Shown: piece by piece, positions 768 to 42,083 of the stretch
Layout of the letters: each line of letters begins with the position of its first letter
Position numbering within the stretch: position 1 is the stretch's first letter
DNA from: a virus
Reading direction: 5' to 3' (one strand)
IMG/VR virus record: IMGVR_UViG_3300005290_000037
Span: 1 to 54,300 of that record
Length of the DNA stretch: 54,300 bases
The notes under the pieces: model-generated
The model's database searches: none
Told to the model about the DNA's origin: nothing
The model's input: the letters and a program-made list of their open reading frames with translations, nothing else
Translations under genes and position numbers: made by a program

Positions 768-2458
768 TGGTTTCGCATCGCGTCGATCAGTACGCCGACC
801 GGGTGCACACGGGCGAATTCGTCGCGGGGCCACTGGTGCGGCTGGCCTGTGCGCGGCATCTCGAGGAACGTCGACTCGCACTGACGAAGGCTGGCCATCC
901 GCGGGGCTTCTGGTTCGATGAGGCAGCGGCGAATCACATCATTGAGTTTTTCGAGACGGTGCTCCGGTTGCCGGACACCTTGGACCCAGACGGCGAACCG
1001 ATCCCGTTCCTCCTGACGCCGGCGAACACGTTCATTGTCGGATCGCTGTTCGGGTGGAAGTTGGCCGAGCAGTACGGCGGCTGGCGACGCTACCGCGAGT
1101 CCTATATCGAAATGGGCAAGGGGAACGCCAAAACACCGGTGGCGGCGGGGATTGGGCTGTATGGCCTGACGATGGATGGCGAGCAAGCCGCGGAAATCTA
1201 CAGCGCGGCGACGGGGATTGACCAGGCGAAACTCTGCTGGCTGGATGCTCAGCGCATGGTCGATGCGTCCCCAGAGCTCTCCGACATCATCTACCAGAGT
1301 CAGAACAATCTGGCTTATGAGCCGACGATGTCATTCTTTCGGCCGGTCTCGAATGAGAAGCGCGGGAAGTCAGGTCCACGCCCGCACATCTGCCTGATTG
1401 ACGAGCTCCACGAACACGCCGACGCGGTAATCGTCAACAAACTGCGGGCGGGTGCGAAACGGCGGAAGCAGCCGCTGTTTTTCGAGATTACCAACTCCGG
1501 CTTTGACCGGACGTCGATCTGTTTCCAGCATCACGACCACAGCCGGAAAGTGCTCGAGGGGATTCTCGAAGATGACCGCTGGTTCTCCTACGTCTGCGGG
1601 TTGGATGAAGGTGACGATCCGCTGACGGACAAGGCGTGTCACGTGAAAGCGAATCCGAACCTTGGGATTGTGATCCATCAGGACTATCTCGATCGCCAAG
1701 TCGCCAACGCGAAGAACATTCCGGCCGAAACCAATACCGTGCTCCGGTTGAACTTCTGTGTCTGGACGTCGCAGCACATCGAAGCGTGGGACATGGGCAA
1801 ATGGCGGCAAGCCGGCGCCGATTTGCACGTGACGGAGCGTGACTTACTCGGCCATCCCTGCTTCGGCGGACTCGACCTGGGTCAGAACGATGACTTTGCG
1901 GCCTGGGTGCGGATCTGGGATCTGCCCGAGTGCGTGGCCATCAAGTGCCGGTTCTGGCTGCCGCGGGCCGCCTTACAGAAGTATCCCGATCGCCCCTATG
2001 CCGAATGGGAACGCGCGGGCCTGTTAGAAGTCACCGATGGGAACACGACCGATTTGGATCTGATTGAAGATGCGGTGATTGACGACGCGCGCAGTGATGG
2101 CGTGAAAGAGATTGCCTATGACAAGCGCTTCGCGCAACAACTCGCGCTGCATTTGCAAGGGGCGGGCCTCACGGTGGTCGATACGCCGCAAGGCTTCGCG
2201 CTGAACGAATCGATCAAGAACGTCGCGAAGTTGATTGCCGACATGGAAATCGCGCACGGCAACAACCTGATCATGACGTGGATGATGGATAACACCGTGC
2301 TGCGGAATGGGCGGAACAAGGAAGTGCGGATCGACAAGGACGCCGCGAAGGAAAAGATTGACGGCCCATCAGCATTGGTCATGGCCAATGCGCGGCGGAT
2401 CGCCCAAGCGAAGCCGAAAGAATATCAACTGATGATCCTCGGAGGCACGCGCGCATGA
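767..2458 (+). CDS. terL: Terminase large subunit (ATPase and nuclease)
   Basis: 563 aa, normal for the family. An N-terminal ATPase (about residues 80-240) carries a Walker-A-like GKGNAKT, followed by a Walker B strand (CLIDELHEH) with its acidic pair. The C-terminal RNase H-like nuclease (about 360-540) has the acidic GGLDLGQNDD motif, a second acidic strand near AYDKRF and the late EKIDGPSALVMANARR stretch typical of Terminase_1 proteins. It would translocate DNA into the prohead and cut concatemers. The start is fixed by the TGATG overlap with terS. It is followed by a 59-aa gene sharing ATGA. Confidence 0.95.
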   Translation: MVSHRVDQYADRVHTGEFVAGPLVRLACARHLEERRLALTKAGHPRGFWFDEAAANHIIEFFETVLRLPDTLDPDGEPIPFLLTPANTFIVGSLFGWKLAEQYGGWRRYRESYIEMGKGNAKTPVAAGIGLYGLTMDGEQAAEIYSAATGIDQAKLCWLDAQRMVDASPELSDIIYQSQNNLAYEPTMSFFRPVSNEKRGKSGPRPHICLIDELHEHADAVIVNKLRAGAKRRKQPLFFEITNSGFDRTSICFQHHDHSRKVLEGILEDDRWFSYVCGLDEGDDPLTDKACHVKANPNLGIVIHQDYLDRQVANAKNIPAETNTVLRLNFCVWTSQHIEAWDMGKWRQAGADLHVTERDLLGHPCFGGLDLGQNDDFAAWVRIWDLPECVAIKCRFWLPRAALQKYPDRPYAEWERAGLLEVTDGNTTDLDLIEDAVIDDARSDGVKEIAYDKRFAQQLALHLQGAGLTVVDTPQGFALNESIKNVAKLIADMEIAHGNNLIMTWMMDNTVLRNGRNKEVRIDKDAAKEKIDGPSALVMANARRIAQAKPKEYQLMILGGTRA

Positions 2459-2634
2459 TCATTGCGCCGATTCCATTCTGGTATCGAGAGCTGACTAAGC
2501 GTGGCGAATGGAGACTTTCGATCGGCTCTCTTCGGCGCCGAGTGTTCGCGAAGAGGGTCGATCGCTTTCCAGAAGGGACGGTCTATCGTCTCTGGTTGTG
2601 GGTCGTTCAGATTCGACTCATGGTGAAGGCATGA
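2455..2634 (+). CDS. Small basic protein, unknown
   Basis: 59 aa, starting MIIAPIPFWYREL and rich in Arg and Trp. It is linked by ATGA overlaps to terL upstream and to the methyltransferase downstream, and this double coupling is the main reason to call it real. The hydrophobic stretch near VYRLWLWVVQIRLMV may be membrane-active or amphipathic. No function is recognised. Confidence 0.6.
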   Translation: MIIAPIPFWYRELTKRGEWRLSIGSLRRRVFAKRVDRFPEGTVYRLWLWVVQIRLMVKA

Positions 2635-3182
2635 ACTTGGTCGCCGCTCGCGCGGCTGACGGCTGGATGGCGGACGATGAACTCGTCTGGCTCGCTGAGC
2701 AAGCCGCGTGGGCCGATTCGATTATCGAAGTCGGCTCGTGGAAAGGTCGCTCCACGCTGGCACTGGCTGAGAACACGCCGGGGCATGTCTGGGCGGTGGA
2801 TCATTGGCAGGGCACACCTGGGGATGCCCATCTCGCAGAAGTCGAACGGCTCGGCGGACCGGACGGGTTGTATCAAGCCTTCTGCGAGAATTTGCGACAC
2901 TGCTTTGAGCGTGGCACGGTCAGCATGTTTCGGATGGACTCTGCCGAAGCGGCCAAGAACTTCCAGCGGGGCTCGGTCGATCTTGTGTTCATCGATGCAA
3001 GCCATGTCTACGCGGACGTGAAGCGCGACATCGAAACGTACCGTCCGCTGGTGAAACCGGGCGGGATCTTGTGTGGGCACGACTACGCCTGTCCGTCCCA
3101 TCGTGGCGTGCAGGATGCGGTAGATGAATTGTTTCCGAAGGTGAACCGCGCGGGGTTGTCGATCTGGTGGGTGCGGCTGTGA
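2631..3182 (+). CDS. SAM-dependent methyltransferase (Methyltransf_24 type)
   Basis: 183 aa starting MNLVAARA. The ATG shares ATGA with the preceding small gene, so I prefer it to an earlier in-frame start at 2508. The Rossmann motif I is IIEVGSWKGRSTLAL, followed by an acidic VDHWQG strand, then DLVFIDASH and a late PGGILCGHDY strand, as in class I enzymes of the small-molecule/sugar O-methyltransferase group. It opens a block with three glycosyltransferase-like genes and so probably methylates a sugar on a virion glycan. The substrate is inferred. Confidence 0.8.
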   Translation: MNLVAARAADGWMADDELVWLAEQAAWADSIIEVGSWKGRSTLALAENTPGHVWAVDHWQGTPGDAHLAEVERLGGPDGLYQAFCENLRHCFERGTVSMFRMDSAEAAKNFQRGSVDLVFIDASHVYADVKRDIETYRPLVKPGGILCGHDYACPSHRGVQDAVDELFPKVNRAGLSIWWVRL

Positions 3183-3313
3183 CTGAATACATGCGCGAAC
3201 GTCTTGTCAGAAGTCTGCCAAGTGATCGCTCTTGTCTCTCCTGGCTCAGGACGTTTGCCTGCGCCTTGTCTGGTGCGATCATCGGCACACTATTGGGAAT
3301 AATGACGAAATGA
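3179..3313 (+). CDS. Membrane mini-protein
   Basis: 44 aa with a GTG start that overlaps the preceding stop (GTGA), and a stop that overlaps the next start (ATGA). The C-terminal half (FACALSGAIIGTLLGIM) forms one predicted membrane helix. Function is unknown. Coupling on both sides argues that it is translated and sets the start of the next gene. Confidence 0.5.
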   Translation: MTEYMRERLVRSLPSDRSCLSWLRTFACALSGAIIGTLLGIMTK

Positions 3314-4080
3314 CGCGCATCGTCTTCTCGAAAGATCGCGCCCTACAACTGCACGCGTTTCTGCGGTCCTATCAGGATCACGTCTCGCCACACGCGCGGA
3401 TGACGGTGCTGTATAAAGCCAGCACGCTGCGACATCAAGCCGCGTATACGGACATGTTTCGCGCGTTTCCGTGGGTGCAACCGTTCCGCCAGTCGGCCAA
3501 CTTCAAGAAAGACTTGCTCGAATTGTTGCCGGCCTATGGCTGGGCGATCCTCTTTGCCGATGATCATTTGTTCGTGCGGCCGTGGGTGGAAGAAGAGCGG
3601 CTGATCAATCTGCATCTCGGGTTGAATCTGACGTGGTGTTACACGCTCAACGTGCCGCAACCGTTGCCGAGGCATGAGTTGATCGAGCCAGACAAGGTGT
3701 CGTGGTCATGGTGGCGTGGAGACGGCGATTGGGCATATCCACTCTGTCCGTGCGGGCACGTCTTTAATCTAGAGGAATGGCGCCCGATGATCGCCGCAGC
3801 AGAGTTCACGTCGCCGAATACTTTAGAGATGGCGCTGCAAGTCCATCGCTCAGCGTTTCTCTCGCGTCGTGGCCTCTGCTACCGCGCATCGAAACTGGTG
3901 CTCTTACCGTGGAACCGCGTGCAGGATGAATGCCCGAACCGCATCGCGGCAAACCTGCCGCATCCCGATCAACTCGTCGCGCAGTGGGAAGCGGGCTATC
4001 AGATCAACGTCTCGGCACTCTACGGCGTGCAGAATGAAAGTTTGCATCAGGAATTGCCGTTGGTCTTGGAGGCGCGGTGA
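3310..4080 (+). CDS. Glycosyltransferase-like protein
   Basis: 256 aa starting MTRIVFSKDRALQL. The ATG shares ATGA with the upstream mini-gene. An earlier in-frame start at 3232 would overlap that gene almost entirely and is rejected. The short N-terminal strand, the FADDHLF acidic motif near residue 88 and the later Trp-rich WSWWRGDGDW segment suggest a GT-A-like nucleotide-sugar enzyme. Its place between a methyltransferase and two more transferases supports a glycan role. The family is not firmly identified, and donor and acceptor are unknown. Confidence 0.6.
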   Translation: MTRIVFSKDRALQLHAFLRSYQDHVSPHARMTVLYKASTLRHQAAYTDMFRAFPWVQPFRQSANFKKDLLELLPAYGWAILFADDHLFVRPWVEEERLINLHLGLNLTWCYTLNVPQPLPRHELIEPDKVSWSWWRGDGDWAYPLCPCGHVFNLEEWRPMIAAAEFTSPNTLEMALQVHRSAFLSRRGLCYRASKLVLLPWNRVQDECPNRIAANLPHPDQLVAQWEAGYQINVSALYGVQNESLHQELPLVLEAR

Positions 4081-4691
4081 ACGTCACGATGCGGAGCGCA
4101 ATAATTTATTGCCCGCATTTGAATCGGGACATTCGCGGCTTGCTGAATGCGATTCCCTTTCCCCGGATTTGGACGGGCGCGCAAACCGCACGCGGGGAAG
4201 ACGGCTGCCTGCAGTGCCATCAGGCGATTGTGCTCTATGCGCTGGCGCACCACTGGCCGCAAGTCTTTGTGATGGAAGATGACTGCGCGTTGACTGAGCA
4301 GTTCTACTATCGGCGCTGGGTGGAAGATGCCGCATGGGCTGAGGCGCACGGGTATGACGTGTTGGTCGGTGGCTCCACTCGGACATACGGCGAGAAGGTC
4401 GTCAGGGACGGCCTGATCGAAGTCTCATCGTTCTGCAGCGCGCATTGCGTCGTCTATTTGCAGTCCAGTTACGAGACGATTCTGAAAACCGTGCAGCCAC
4501 ACGATCAGTCTATCGGGCGACTCGGCGCGAAATGTCTGTTGACGTGGCCGTTTGTCGCGGTGCAGCGCGCGGTCTTCTCTGGCATTCTGCGGCAGGAAGT
4601 GGATTACACGCCACTGTATGAGGCGCATGAGAAACGGCTCGGCCATGCCCTCGGTCTCCTTCAACCGCAGATGCCCATGCCGGTGTACTGA
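4077..4691 (+). CDS. Glycosyltransferase family 25-like
   Basis: 204 aa, GTG start in a GTGA overlap (an ATG lies four codons in). The early RGEDGCLQCHQAIVLYAL segment followed by VFVMEDDCAL is the pattern of LPS-type GT25 enzymes: a conserved Gly-Cys helix and then the ExDD motif that binds metal and nucleotide sugar. It is shorter than many GT25 proteins. It shares TGATG with the next transferase. It probably adds a sugar to a glycan that decorates the virion or the host surface, but the sequence does not say which. Confidence 0.7.
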   Translation: MNVTMRSAIIYCPHLNRDIRGLLNAIPFPRIWTGAQTARGEDGCLQCHQAIVLYALAHHWPQVFVMEDDCALTEQFYYRRWVEDAAWAEAHGYDVLVGGSTRTYGEKVVRDGLIEVSSFCSAHCVVYLQSSYETILKTVQPHDQSIGRLGAKCLLTWPFVAVQRAVFSGILRQEVDYTPLYEAHEKRLGHALGLLQPQMPMPVY

Positions 4692-5278
4692 TGATTAGCT
4701 TTGTGCTGCCCACGCTCGGCCGTCCCGGTCTTCTGACCGCGCTGGATTCGATCGAACTCTGGCCCGGTGACGAAGTGTTGGTCATCGGCGAAATGGCACA
4801 CCTGAACCCCTATATTCGATCCTTGGATGTGCAGCGCGGGGTCCGGTTCCTGCATTGTCCGCGCGGCAATGATTGGGGCCACAGCGAACGAAACTTCGCG
4901 CAGGCGCACGCGAAAGGGCGCTATCTCGCCAACCTGGACGATGATGACGTGTTCGTCCCCGGCGCGCGAGACCTAATGGCCGATGCGATGGAGACCACAC
5001 CGGACCGGCCGGTGATCTTCCGCATGTCGTATCCCAATGGCATGACGCTGTGGTACCGCTCGCACTATTTCGGCGATGACATCACTGGCGGGAATGTTGG
5101 GACGCCGATGATGTTTTTTCCGAATGACCGCGCGAAGTTAGGCCACTGGGGGCACGACTACACGGGCGACTTCCAGTTCCTCAAAAGCTGCAGATGGCGG
5201 CCAGAGGACTACGTCTGGCGGCCTGAAATCATCGCGTTAATCGGCCGGGATCAACACGCGGAGGCGGCCAGTGCGTGA
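4691..5278 (+). CDS. Glycosyltransferase family 2-like
   Basis: 195 aa. The opening MISFVLPTLGRPGLLTALDSI and the DDDD motif in ANLDDDDVFVPGA are classic GT2 (GT-A fold) signatures for nucleotide-sugar and divalent-metal binding. A late acidic segment (GHDYTGDFQF) may contribute to the active site. It is the last of three transferases in a tightly coupled run and overlaps the next gene by 8 bp. Donor and acceptor sugars are unknown. Confidence 0.8.
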   Translation: MISFVLPTLGRPGLLTALDSIELWPGDEVLVIGEMAHLNPYIRSLDVQRGVRFLHCPRGNDWGHSERNFAQAHAKGRYLANLDDDDVFVPGARDLMADAMETTPDRPVIFRMSYPNGMTLWYRSHYFGDDITGGNVGTPMMFFPNDRAKLGHWGHDYTGDFQFLKSCRWRPEDYVWRPEIIALIGRDQHAEAASA

Positions 5279-16975: not shown

Positions 16976-17524
16976 ATGCCGTTTAAGGACCCTGAAAGAC
17001 AAAGGGCATATTTCAGGGCTAGATATTTGTCCAAACGCGCTGAAATCTCAGCGCGGAAGAAACTGGCCTACAAGGCCAATCCGGACCCATCAAAGCTGCG
17101 AAGCAAGAAGTACAAGTCCGAGAACAGGGAGCTGTATCTAGCATCTAGCAATAGATACCGTGCAGCTTATTACCCACTGCATCGAGATAAGTACGCAGCG
17201 TATTCAAAATCCTATCGTGAGACCAATAGGATCAGGCTAGCAACAATCGCAGCCGTTTATCGCGCCGAACATAAGCGCGAACATGCTGAACACGAAGGAC
17301 GGCGGCGCGCCAGAAAGAAGAACACGGCATTCGAGAAGGTCGACTTCGTGAAGATTCTGCACGATTCCAACGGGTTGTGTGGAATATGCCAGCAGCCATT
17401 TGATCTCTTCGGGATCGACTTCGATCACATCATCCCACTAGCTCGTGGCGGAACACATTCCAACGGAAATATTCAGGCTACCCATTCGCGCTGTAATCGC
17501 GCGAAGGGTGTGAAGGTGGGGTGA
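16976..17524 (+). CDS. Free-standing HNH endonuclease
   Basis: 182 aa. The C-terminal 60 residues hold a complete HNH site: CGICQQPFDLFGIDFDHIIPLARGGTHSNGNIQATHSRCNRAKG, with a C-C/C zinc pair, the catalytic DH and the final N. The N-terminal 110 residues are a highly charged Lys/Arg/Tyr repeat region (DNA-binding), as in intron-like mobile HNH genes. It interrupts the conserved run between the major tail protein and the tail chaperone and is visibly richer in A/T than its neighbours, so it is probably a later insertion. Confidence 0.9.
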   Translation: MPFKDPERQRAYFRARYLSKRAEISARKKLAYKANPDPSKLRSKKYKSENRELYLASSNRYRAAYYPLHRDKYAAYSKSYRETNRIRLATIAAVYRAEHKREHAEHEGRRRARKKNTAFEKVDFVKILHDSNGLCGICQQPFDLFGIDFDHIIPLARGGTHSNGNIQATHSRCNRAKGVKVG

Positions 17525-36537: not shown

Positions 36538-37032
36538 ATGGCCGCTGAGAAGTCGCCAGCCTTCCAGTTCTCACGGAAGACGCAACAGCGTTTCTGGGTG
36601 AAGGTCCAGGCTGGCCCTGACGATCAGTGCTGGATCTGGCACGGCGCAAAAGACGCAGAAGGCTACGGTTATTTCTGGGACGGCGTTGCGAACCGACGAG
36701 CGCATCGTTACGCCTACGCTTTAAAAGCGTGGGACGTATTCCTAGATGGCCATGTGCTGCATTCTTGTGATAACCCGTCGTGCGTCAATCCGAAACATCT
36801 GAGACTTGGCACACACGCGGAAAACATCAGAGAACGCAATCAGAAGGGTCGCCACAATCTTCCGAGCGGTGATCGGCACTGGTATAAAGCGCTCGACCAG
36901 GAGAAGGCTGATCGTATTCGCGCGTGGGTATTCCGTGGGCAGTCACAGGCTTCAGTGGCTCGCGCCTTCGGTGTTAGCCCTGCGACGGTCTGCCGCCTAA
37001 TTAACGGTCAACAGCGGAAGGAGCTGCGCTAG
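36538..37032 (+). CDS. HNH homing-type endonuclease with captured N-terminus
   Basis: 164 aa. HNH_3-like core: CWIWHGAKDAEGYGYFWDGVANRRAHRYAYALKAWD, then LHSCDNPSCVNPKHLRLGTHAENIRERN, with the catalytic H, N and second H and a zinc-binding Cys pair. A C-terminal helix-turn-helix (SQASVARAFGVSPATVCRLING) gives DNA recognition. The first 11 residues, MAAEKSPAFQF, copy the start of the next gene (MAPEKSPAFQF), although 10 of those 11 codons differ in DNA. The gene seems to have entered in front of that gene, carrying a recoded copy of its start. Confidence 0.9.
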   Translation: MAAEKSPAFQFSRKTQQRFWVKVQAGPDDQCWIWHGAKDAEGYGYFWDGVANRRAHRYAYALKAWDVFLDGHVLHSCDNPSCVNPKHLRLGTHAENIRERNQKGRHNLPSGDRHWYKALDQEKADRIRAWVFRGQSQASVARAFGVSPATVCRLINGQQRKELR

Positions 37033-38283: not shown

Positions 38284-38347
38284 TTTCCAGCAGGCGGGGA
38301 AGGTCCGTCCGCCGAAGACGCGGGCGAGGGGTGGCGCCTCATGCTGA
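38258..38347 (+). CDS. Possible 29-residue protein
   Basis: MALHVLVGDFQQAGKVRPPKTRARGGASC, overlapping the zinc gene upstream and the methyltransferase start downstream. It reads as protein-like (strand then basic tail) and fills the gap between those genes, but has no clear ribosome site. It may be a coincidence. Confidence 0.35.
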   Translation: MALHVLVGDFQQAGKVRPPKTRARGGASC

Positions 38348-39993
38348 TCCAAGCGGATGCCCGATCCCTACCGTTACGGGATGGGTGCGTCGATTGCTGC
38401 GTGACGTCACCGCCGTATTTCGGCTTGCGGGATTACGGGGTGCGTACCCAAATCGGCCTCGAAGGCACACCGGAAGCCTATATCGCCTCGATTTGCTCGG
38501 TATTCAGGGAAATTCGACGCGTACTTAAGGACGAGGGTACGGCATGGCTGAATCTCGGGGATGGTTTCGGCACCGTTGGGAATAGGAATGGTTTAGATGC
38601 GTCCACCCTCGGTGGAAGCAAGACGTATGGACGTGGCTGTGATGCTGAACGTCCCGATCGAATCGTGGATCTTGGCGTGAGAGCGAAGAATCTACTCGGC
38701 ATCCCGTGGCGCGTCGCGCTGGCGCTGCAAGCGGACGGCTGGTACCTCCGCTCCGACATCATCTGGAGTAAACCCAATCCGATGCCGGAGAGCGTTCAAG
38801 GAACGCATTATTCTAGGCATCTAGTTACGGTAGATGAATATGAGAGATTGTCTGGTTTGCGGTACCTCTGCGAGTGTGCCGGGGACGACTGGGCCGGCGA
38901 CGTGCCCCCGCTGTCGGAGGGCCAAATATCTCATCGCAAAGCGCCGCTATCAGCAGAGTGCGAAGGGGAAAGCTACCGCGCGTCTGCGCGAGGAACGTGC
39001 CGATGTGCGCGAAAAGCGACGGGTGTTCTCAGCGTCACAACAAGGCCAACAGAACAACAAGAAATATCGCCAGACACCGAAGGGGCAGGCGGTCGGTCGA
39101 AAGCGGGCGGCGAATTATCGATCTCGGCGGAAGAATGCCGAGGGAATACTGACGGCTCAGGATTGGCTGACGATTCTCGAGCAGCACAAGTATCGGTGCT
39201 ATTACTGCCGAAAGCGCAAGATAAAACTAACACTCGATCATGTCATCCCGCTCAGCAAGGGCGGCAGGAACTCGCCAGAGAACATCGTTCCAGCGTGTCA
39301 GTCGTGCAACTGCGCGAAGCGGGACAAGATGATTCTTCTCTGCTAGTCGGATGCCCAGGCTGCGATAAGTGTATTGGGCATCATGGCTACACATTCCATC
39401 TGTCGGCAGGCCGGCCGACGAAGGCGCATGAGTATCTGTTCCTGCTGACCAAAAGCGAGAAGTACTACTACGACCAAGCCTCGATCTTCGAGCCGTACGC
39501 CGAGAGTACGTTGCGTGAAGTCGAAGACGGATACGACGGACTCGGCCTGAAGGATTACGCGGCGGCTGGCGTCCAGAACCCCAGCGACACCAAGCGTCGC
39601 ATCATCGATAGCATCAATAAAAAACGCAGCAGTTACCGGCCCGGGTCCGCGTCGAACATGAACAGCGGTGAACATGTAAAGAAATCCGATGCGGGCCTGC
39701 CACTACGAGAAGGTGGACGCAACAAGCGTACCGTCTGGACGATTCCCACGATGCCCTACGCCGGCGCGCACTTCGCCACCATGCCAGAGAAGTTAGTCGA
39801 GCCCTGCATCCTGGCTGGGTGTCCAATGGGCGGGCTCGTGCTCGATCCGTTCAGTGGTTCAGGAACGGTGCTGGCCGTGGCAGAACGACTCGGACGGCGC
39901 GGGGTCGGCGTGGATCTTAATCCGGCCTATCACGAACTCGCGAAGGTTCGCACGGCGCAGCGTGGCTTGAGATTCGGCGAGGCCGCAGTATGA
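38341..39993 (+). CDS. DNA methyltransferase (N4/N6 class) containing a nested gene
   Basis: 550 aa, long for the family. Motif IV TSPPYFGLRDYG is early, followed by SDIIWSKPNPMPESV; the SAM motif I LVLDPFSGSGTVLAVAERLGRRGVGVDL is near the end. That IV-then-I order and the SPPY sequence fit an N4-cytosine or beta-class amino-methyltransferase. Residues about 165-330 are not family-like: their DNA encodes an HNH nuclease in another frame (38834-39346). The domain resumes at CPGCDKCIGHHGYTFHLSAGRPTKAHEYLF. No matching restriction enzyme was found, so it may shield phage DNA from host restriction. Confidence 0.85.
   Translation: MLIQADARSLPLRDGCVDCCVTSPPYFGLRDYGVRTQIGLEGTPEAYIASICSVFREIRRVLKDEGTAWLNLGDGFGTVGNRNGLDASTLGGSKTYGRGCDAERPDRIVDLGVRAKNLLGIPWRVALALQADGWYLRSDIIWSKPNPMPESVQGTHYSRHLVTVDEYERLSGLRYLCECAGDDWAGDVPPLSEGQISHRKAPLSAECEGESYRASARGTCRCARKATGVLSVTTRPTEQQEISPDTEGAGGRSKAGGELSISAEECRGNTDGSGLADDSRAAQVSVLLLPKAQDKTNTRSCHPAQQGRQELAREHRSSVSVVQLREAGQDDSSLLVGCPGCDKCIGHHGYTFHLSAGRPTKAHEYLFLLTKSEKYYYDQASIFEPYAESTLREVEDGYDGLGLKDYAAAGVQNPSDTKRRIIDSINKKRSSYRPGSASNMNSGEHVKKSDAGLPLREGGRNKRTVWTIPTMPYAGAHFATMPEKLVEPCILAGCPMGGLVLDPFSGSGTVLAVAERLGRRGVGVDLNPAYHELAKVRTAQRGLRFGEAAV
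38834..39346 (+). CDS. HNH endonuclease nested inside the methyltransferase gene
   Basis: 170 aa, wholly inside the methyltransferase gene in the +1 frame relative to it. N-terminal zinc ribbon (CLVCG ... CPRCRR), a Lys/Arg-rich DNA-binding stretch, and a clean HNH site: YRCYYCRKRKIKLTLDHVIPLSKGGRNSPENIVPACQSCNCAKRDK. ATG 38834 or 38840 could start it. Unlike a plain insertion, the methyltransferase frame stays open through all 171 codons, so both frames may be used. Its insertion point is where the methyltransferase carries a variable zinc-knuckle loop. Confidence 0.85.
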   Translation: MNMRDCLVCGTSASVPGTTGPATCPRCRRAKYLIAKRRYQQSAKGKATARLREERADVREKRRVFSASQQGQQNNKKYRQTPKGQAVGRKRAANYRSRRKNAEGILTAQDWLTILEQHKYRCYYCRKRKIKLTLDHVIPLSKGGRNSPENIVPACQSCNCAKRDKMILLC

Positions 39994-40899: not shown

Positions 40900-41014
40900 G
40901 TTGGGTAGGCCCCCGGCCGCCCGAAGGGGTAGCCCCGTGAAAGTCCGAAGGGGTGAGGTAAACGGCTCTACGGCCAAGGCCGATAGCTTTCCGCCTAGCT
41001 CGCTGTAGCGAGCT
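40900..41014 (-). ncRNA. Candidate omega-RNA and right end of the TnpB element
   Basis: Downstream of tnpB on the minus strand, partly inside its last codons. Stem AGCTCGCT (40997-41004) with AGCGAGCT (41007-41014); GGGG-TAG-CCCC (40926-40936); and the repeat CCGAAGGGGT at 40921-40930 and 40945-40954. TnpB omega-RNAs characteristically span the tnpB 3' end and finish at the element's right edge, where the guide begins. The boundary is probably near 40900-40906. It cannot be placed exactly by eye. Confidence 0.65.
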
Positions 41015-42083
41015 GGCAGGTCTGAGGCGGGCTTACGAGCCGCCCAAGCCTTGAGAGATTCAAGGCAGCGTTGAAATCAGCGTTCGTCGAGTAGCCACAA
41101 TGCACACACCGGAAAAAGGCTTGATCTCGTCGATTGGCTTTCTCGCAATGACCGCACGCGCTACAGGTGCGGCTCGTGTTGCGGGGATCGACCAACGCGA
41201 CTGGAACGCCGGAGAGTGTAGCTTTGTACTCGATAAACGCGCGCAGTTGATAGAACGCCCAGCCGGAGTGCTTGGCGCGGTGCTTCCGCCTAACCGTTGT
41301 CCGCGATCGGATGTGCGTCAGGTCTTCCAACGCAATACCTCGCTTCGTGTCTTTAGCGGTAGTGACGATCTGCTTACTGATGCAGTGGTTCTGGTGGCGT
41401 CGAAAGCGGGCCTCTCGGCCGGCCAGATTCCTCAGTCGTTTCTTGGCGCCTCGCGTTCCTTTGCGTTGGAGGCTTCGCCGGTTCCTATGGTGGCGTCGCC
41501 GCACACGTTCGACTGTTGTTCCGCTGTGCGTCGTACCGTCGCTGTCGGTTGCCAAGTTGACGATACCCAAGTCAATGCCGAGAAAATCGGACGGAGTGAT
41601 AGGGGCACCGTCAGGAACCACGATACTCGCGTACAGATAGAACTTCCCGTCTCTGAGGACGAGATCGCATTGTCCTTTCAGGCGGTCGAATCGCGCCCGT
41701 TGATACTCGCCGAACATCAACGGAACGAGCTGTCGGCCATCCAGGGTCAACAGGCTTACGGTGTCCATGCCTTTGAAGGACATCAACCGCTCGTCAAGCG
41801 TGATTGCGCCGTCAGGTCGAAATTTCGGACAGACGGTCTTGTCTCGCGCGAAGCATTCGACGGCCTTTCCGATGGCGCGCACAGCCATCTGGCTCGACAA
41901 ACCGAATCGTTTCCGCAATTCGTAGTAGACGAGTTTGTGAATGCTCGGCTGACTGCGTACGCCAGCCTGAAAGCCTGCCCTAGCCGCATAAGTGGCCGCA
42001 GCGTTGAAGGCGCGCATCGTGGCCCGCAGTTGCGACGATTGAATAACTGTCGGCAGAAGCCGCAATTGCAGCGTCAGTATCAA
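40995..42083 (-). CDS. tnpB: TnpB, RNA-guided nuclease (IS605/IS1341 type), orphan
   Basis: 362 aa, TTG start. All three RuvC catalytic residues are present: D in FLGIDLGIVNLATD, E in GIALEDLTHIRSR and D in CGYSTNADFNAALNLSR, plus the four-Cys zinc knuckle CSACGHCEKANRRDQAFFRCVHC. It is therefore likely active as an omega-RNA-guided DNA nuclease, the ancestor type of Cas12. No TnpA transposase is nearby, so the unit would need one from elsewhere. Coding strand is opposite to the surrounding operon. The left end with its hairpin follows at 42084-42119. Confidence 0.93.
   Translation of the reverse strand: MILTLQLRLLPTVIQSSQLRATMRAFNAAATYAARAGFQAGVRSQPSIHKLVYYELRKRFGLSSQMAVRAIGKAVECFARDKTVCPKFRPDGAITLDERLMSFKGMDTVSLLTLDGRQLVPLMFGEYQRARFDRLKGQCDLVLRDGKFYLYASIVVPDGAPITPSDFLGIDLGIVNLATDSDGTTHSGTTVERVRRRHHRNRRSLQRKGTRGAKKRLRNLAGREARFRRHQNHCISKQIVTTAKDTKRGIALEDLTHIRSRTTVRRKHRAKHSGWAFYQLRAFIEYKATLSGVPVALVDPRNTSRTCSACGHCEKANRRDQAFFRCVHCGYSTNADFNAALNLSRLGRLVSPPQTCQLATAS

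Follow-up and report, generated by a model that had tools for sequence, protein, structure and literature searches.

The 54,300 bases analyzed, referred to below as the window, make up a virus record in IMG/VR. A DNA methyltransferase gene occupies positions 38341 to 39993 on the forward strand and encodes 550 amino acids in a frame that remains open across a long insert. Its product matches the Pfam family PF01555 (N6_N4_Mtase) above the cut-off with an E value of 1.7e-41, carries the motif TSPPY (at 38404) followed by DPFSGSGT (at 39844), and has structural matches to M.BceJIV, CcrM, and MboIIA. Based on the Pfam match, the motif order, and the fold, we assign the predicted product to the beta-class N6/N4 DNA methyltransferases.

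Wholly within this gene lies a second open reading frame on the same strand (38834 to 39346), which encodes a predicted HNH endonuclease of 170 amino acids in the +1 frame; the two frames begin 493 nucleotides apart, leaving a remainder of 1 after division by 3. Two HNH families in Pfam match the inner frame above the gathering cut-off (PF14279 HNH_5, 1.5e-13; PF01844 HNH, 7.7e-12). The start conserved among its relatives is probably not 38834 itself and instead the ATG at 38840, giving a protein of 168 amino acids that begins MRDC. Near the N terminus is a zinc-finger-like CxxC...CxxC motif (38849 to 38914, forward strand) in which C6, C9, C24, and C27 are invariant among eight members of the family. 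The HNH catalytic core (39197 to 39310, forward strand) contains C122/C125, D135-H136, N150, C155/C158, and N159, all of which are invariant across the eight relatives. The predicted model has a mean pLDDT of 82.6 and places a bba-type core at the C-terminal end; Foldseek matches it best, though only modestly, to the Gme HNH nickase (4h9d) and McrA (6ghc). The first-pass annotation had described a complete HNH nuclease with intact zinc ligands and HNH residues nested in the +1 frame of the methyltransferase gene, and the coordinates, Pfam matches, and invariant residues all agree with this description. A Pfam scan of the methyltransferase frame returned no intein domain, and no Rfam covariance model for a group I or group II intron matched in the window.

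Comparison with about 70 viral methyltransferases lacking the insert delimits what was added. In these proteins the site reads PMPESV-TD-RPTKAHEY, with five residues separating the PMPESV and KAHEY motifs. In the window, 205 codons (residues 153-357; 38797 to 39411, forward strand) stand in place of the two TD codons, and the borders of this mobile unit are backed by an identical block common to contigs L085 and L086. The unit exceeds the HNH open reading frame at both ends. Upstream it includes an arm with a conserved AT-rich pattern (38797 to 38839, forward strand) that probably serves as an internal initiation region, and downstream it includes a CPGCDKC zinc-knuckle arm (39352 to 39411, forward strand) that is coded only in the methyltransferase frame and travels with the unit. 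Methyltransferase residues from about 165 to 330 had been proposed to be extra; the extra segment is real, but its true extent is 153-357. Its placement in a variable loop next to the CPGCxKC knuckle, also proposed earlier, is likewise supported. In the predicted structure of the methyltransferase the core is confident and the knuckle arm is folded, while residues 175-329, which overlap the nuclease gene, have pLDDT values of about 30-45 and are predicted to be disordered.

We searched IMG/VR, GTDB genomes, and phage and plasmid records for relatives, and the resulting counts are lower bounds. At least seven further distinct nested HNH genes were found on IMG/VR contigs, each at the same site, in the same +1 frame, and with the host frame open (L002, L003, L085 with the same insert in L086, L087, L088, L095, and L099 with the same insert in L100). 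Their HNH proteins are 45-65% identical to that of the window. The CPGCxKC knuckle is conserved in the host frame, and it also occurs without an HNH gene, on a short linker, in L105, L106, and L104, the last with its reading divided between two frames. Because the arm is found both with and without the nuclease, it probably has a role of its own. The arm without HNH is probably the state that was first invaded, and the compound loop may later have moved into short-loop methyltransferases such as that of the window. Scanning genome contigs with three of the nested HNHs gave no matches, and scanning with all eight gave solely more distant HNHs; one of these, on planctomycete contig L183, was rejected as a nested case since its +1 frame is closed. 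None of the annotated phage records carries this host-frame insert.

Two contigs differ in the state of the host gene. In L088 the methyltransferase (2366-4464) is apparently frameshifted and the nested HNH is intact, and in L003 an antisense NUMOD3-HNH gene (1214-1765, reverse strand) parts the N-terminal portion of the methyltransferase from the remainder. These cases point either to occasional loss of the host enzyme or to errors in the contigs. The strand complementary to the L003 antisense gene is stop-free (0 stops against 7.7 expected); this gene was nevertheless dropped as an in-frame nested case, as the stop-free complementary frame is not the methyltransferase frame.

Selection on the shared bases was assessed by permuting synonymous codons within each HNH gene and then counting stops in the methyltransferase frame. 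The window has 0 host-frame stops against a mean of 6 expected (P = 0.0002), whereas its third frame has 7 against 5.8 expected. All eight nested genes have 0 host-frame stops against means of 3.8-9.0, with P values of 0.0004 for L002, <5e-5 for both L003 and L085, 0.00025 for L087, 0.0066 for L088, <1e-4 for L095, and 1e-4 for L099. Third-frame controls for the nested genes contain 7-18 stops, 15 stops interrupt the equivalent frame of L001, a stand-alone relative, and 145 non-nested HNH matches average 0.061 stops per codon in that frame. Many GC-rich actinobacterial HNH genes have open alternative frames; these are uninformative and were left out of the counts. Since stops are absent from all eight nested genes and present in the control frames, we conclude that openness of the host frame is selected. 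The first-pass annotation had put the chance of such openness at about one in a thousand and had raised selection for read-through as an explanation; the permutations bear out both points and make the estimate a conservative one.

The two frames differ in the kind of constraint they appear to carry. Between the window and L002, 28%, 25%, and 60% of HNH codon positions 1, 2, and 3 differ, and between L087 and L088 the values are 6%, 3%, and 24%. The latter pair is 94% identical in the HNH protein and 73% in the host frame. Judged from these sequence comparisons, the HNH frame carries amino-acid constraint, which speaks against the earlier suggestion of a nuclease tuned for silence. Within the overlap, the host frame at first also seemed to be under amino-acid selection, but the signal disappeared with the third frame as a control: the excess of identity over a stop-free null is 0.064 for the host frame and 0.059 for the unused third frame. 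In the overlap, then, the methyltransferase frame lacks detectable amino-acid constraint but is under strong constraint to remain stop-free, and staying open is the only selection seen there in these alignments. The first-pass annotation had listed missing constraint in either frame as a finding that would count against its reading, and this holds in part.

Several comparisons show that the unit has moved between genes. Over a block of 809 nt that starts inside the PNPMPESV codons and ends inside the TKSHEY codons, L085 and L086 are exactly identical, and outside the insert their methyltransferases have only 66% protein identity. In a tree of 66 methyltransferases built with the insert left out, in which long branches are present, the window methyltransferase groups with the insert-free L030, L005, L007, and L008 (support 100/97), and its HNH is 62-65% identical to the HNHs of far methyltransferases. 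The presence of the insert requires six changes on this tree, and a single clade of insert-bearing methyltransferases is rejected (AU p=4e-66). HNH and host-protein identities are nonetheless correlated (r = 0.67). A patchy distribution together with a shared block is what homing with co-conversion should produce. The nuclease gene apparently spreads by copying from phage to phage, with the host gene still readable. The suggestion that this is a homing element needing neither intron nor intein fits its behavior, given the shared block, the scattered insert, and the lack of Rfam or Pfam splicing matches.

The region before the HNH start points to how the nuclease may be made. A pattern, CAT-NNN-RTT-ACA-NTN-NAA-GAR-TATG, is conserved there across relatives, and in the 36 nt before the ATG at 38840 wobble positions are AT-rich even in GC-rich genes: in L099, GC3 is 0.80 outside and AT3 is 0.54 within this region, and the corresponding values for L085 are 0.78 and 0.62. 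RNA structure before the start is weaker than the gene average in seven of seven genes tested, though not extreme. There is no canonical Shine-Dalgarno site before the HNH start, and a promoter scan found no forward promoter upstream of it. Internal initiation is the likeliest route to the HNH protein.

We consider it probable that the insert is a splicing-free homing element in which HNH is translated from an internal start, empty alleles are cleaved, and the host is spared by an in-frame disordered loop. Under this model, the nuclease would be translated from the ATG at 38840 on the methyltransferase mRNA and would cut insert-free methyltransferase alleles in or close to the conserved region coding for PMPESV...RPTKAHEY. 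Recombinational repair would then copy the entire loop, HNH and both knuckle arms included, into the allele that was cut. Because the length of the insert is divisible by three and stops in the host frame are removed by selection, the host enzyme would be spared: ribosomes reading through would produce a methyltransferase from whose small zinc-knuckle arm a disordered loop of about 155 residues projects, and this loop-bearing enzyme would presumably be active. The model builds on the dual open frames, the selection for openness, the constraint on the nuclease frame, the movement of the unit between genes, and the absence of known introns and inteins, which we regard as established.

An alternative is that a single ancestral HNH insertion into a zinc-knuckle methyltransferase became trapped and has since been inherited vertically as a dual-coding region, with little or no present homing and with openness persisting because the methyltransferase is needed. 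All members at this site share one frame and have homologous HNHs, the knuckle methyltransferases without HNH (L105, L106, and the split-reading L104) offer a plausible ancestral state, and the correlation between HNH and host identities is what vertical inheritance would leave. Such a history is difficult to reconcile with an identical block in two different methyltransferase genes, with the rejection of a single insert clade, or with a window gene nested among insert-free relatives, and we think it unlikely. Even less probable is that the host-frame segment has a protein function of its own, such as DNA recognition, with the HNH frame secondary and partly used. The occurrence of the CPGCxKC arm with and without HNH agrees with such a function, but the overlap itself is predicted to be disordered, and its host-frame excess, so close to that of the third frame, leaves no detectable amino-acid selection to account for, so that within the overlap this reading is largely refuted.

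Phage group I introns often carry HNH genes, and the insert might therefore be an unrecognised self-splicing intron, or an unusual intein, that is removed so that the open host frame is incidental. A spliced RNA needs no avoidance of stops, yet every copy avoids them; the host-frame CPGCxKC knuckle is conserved, and the Rfam and Pfam scans found neither kind of element. We give this last explanation very little credence. The splicing-free homing element remains our preferred reading.

Other loops of the same methyltransferase family also contain HNH genes. In L114 a related HNH is nested in the +1 frame of the loop that GAPWER and TTGWKPxCxC flank (0 stops where 9.5 are expected, P<1e-4), and in L116 another is nested in +1 between NLRNYWAIP and PGAHFATFP (0 against 4.6, P=0.002). 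L002 carries, besides its nested gene, a second HNH in antisense orientation (4391-4924, reverse strand) between WEIATQPFS and SSHFAVFPEK, the same protein region as the L116 site, and the methyltransferase frame is open across it (0 stops against 3.1, P=0.013). Scans of close relatives found no further nested copies of the L114 and L116 HNHs. The presence of HNHs in these loops indicates that in-frame invasion is recurrent in this host family; as the sense HNHs are related to each other, independent origins are suggested by the different sites and strand. On balance we favor the view that HNH genes have settled repeatedly and independently in several loops of one phage methyltransferase family, always with the host open, in sense +1 at three loops (those of the window-type, L114, and L116 genes) and in antisense in L002. 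If so, an in-frame disordered loop would be a third, splicing-free answer to the damage that homing genes do to their hosts, reached several times.

The hidden-HNH arrangement as a kind has been known since the ShiLan domain, an out-of-frame HNH hidden in a mycobacteriophage DNA methylase (Arsenault, Gosselin, and Gogarten 2025, PMC11855218; Gosselin et al. 2023, PMC9957025). A second hidden HNH with a different insertion was described in the helicase-methylase Pacc40 gp60 (PMC11855218), and another phage case, Applejack, is reported in PMC12613952. Like ShiLan, the window element is an insertion in a phage DNA methylase without a methylase-frame stop and with HNH in another frame, has a patchy distribution and no detectable intron or intein, and is predicted to form a disordered loop in the host protein; like Pacc40 gp60, by its description, it is an HNH-like open reading frame that lies within a methylase gene but in a different frame. 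The ShiLan-type HNH of Mantra gp64, however, belongs to the HNH_3 family without the CxxC core of the window HNH, lies in the -1/+2 rather than the +1 frame, and is inserted elsewhere in a different methylase subfamily. A profile search of Mantra with the nested HNHs found no match, and the openness of Mantra gp64, which is GC-rich, does not differ statistically from chance expectation (P=0.33, synonymous permutation). Mantra gp64 (L265) also has a LAGLIDADG domain besides its hidden HNH. On these sequence grounds, the window element is of the ShiLan-type kind and outside the ShiLan family, in a separate and more widespread lineage. What is new is this lineage and the evidence that openness is selected; the text of PMC11855218 reports no codon-level test of host-frame openness.

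Among better-known nucleases, the window protein shares the Zn-stabilised HNH core of PF01844/PF14279 enzymes such as the Gme HNH nickase and McrA. Unlike those stand-alone or fused proteins, its gene is nested, and the protein has in addition a CxxC finger at the N terminus and helical repeats. Patchy distribution and flank co-conversion are shared with group I intron-borne, intein-borne, and free-standing phage homing endonucleases, from which it differs in having no splicing apparatus and an unsplit host gene. Homing genes are thought to depend on a location in an intron, in an intein, or between genes if the host gene is to survive. In this case a single stretch of bases codes for both nuclease and host, and the codon statistics show selection holding the host frame open. 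Lower-GC lineages make the system testable with respect to the product made, the choice of inner start, and methylation with an insert of about 200 residues. In annotated methyltransferases, what look like "variable low-complexity loops" may conceal genes.

Elsewhere in the window, upstream of the methyltransferase, is a second, stand-alone HNH gene (36538-37032; HNH_3 with a C-terminal HTH), of the same Pfam family as the Mantra ShiLan-type HNH and unlike the nested HNH. Downstream, on the reverse strand, is a TnpB/IS605 OrfB-like gene with a Cas12f1-like TNB domain (40995-42083). Positions 17297-17518, in an open frame of 197 amino acids, show a weak likeness to the nested HNH (33% identity, E 4.5e-6).
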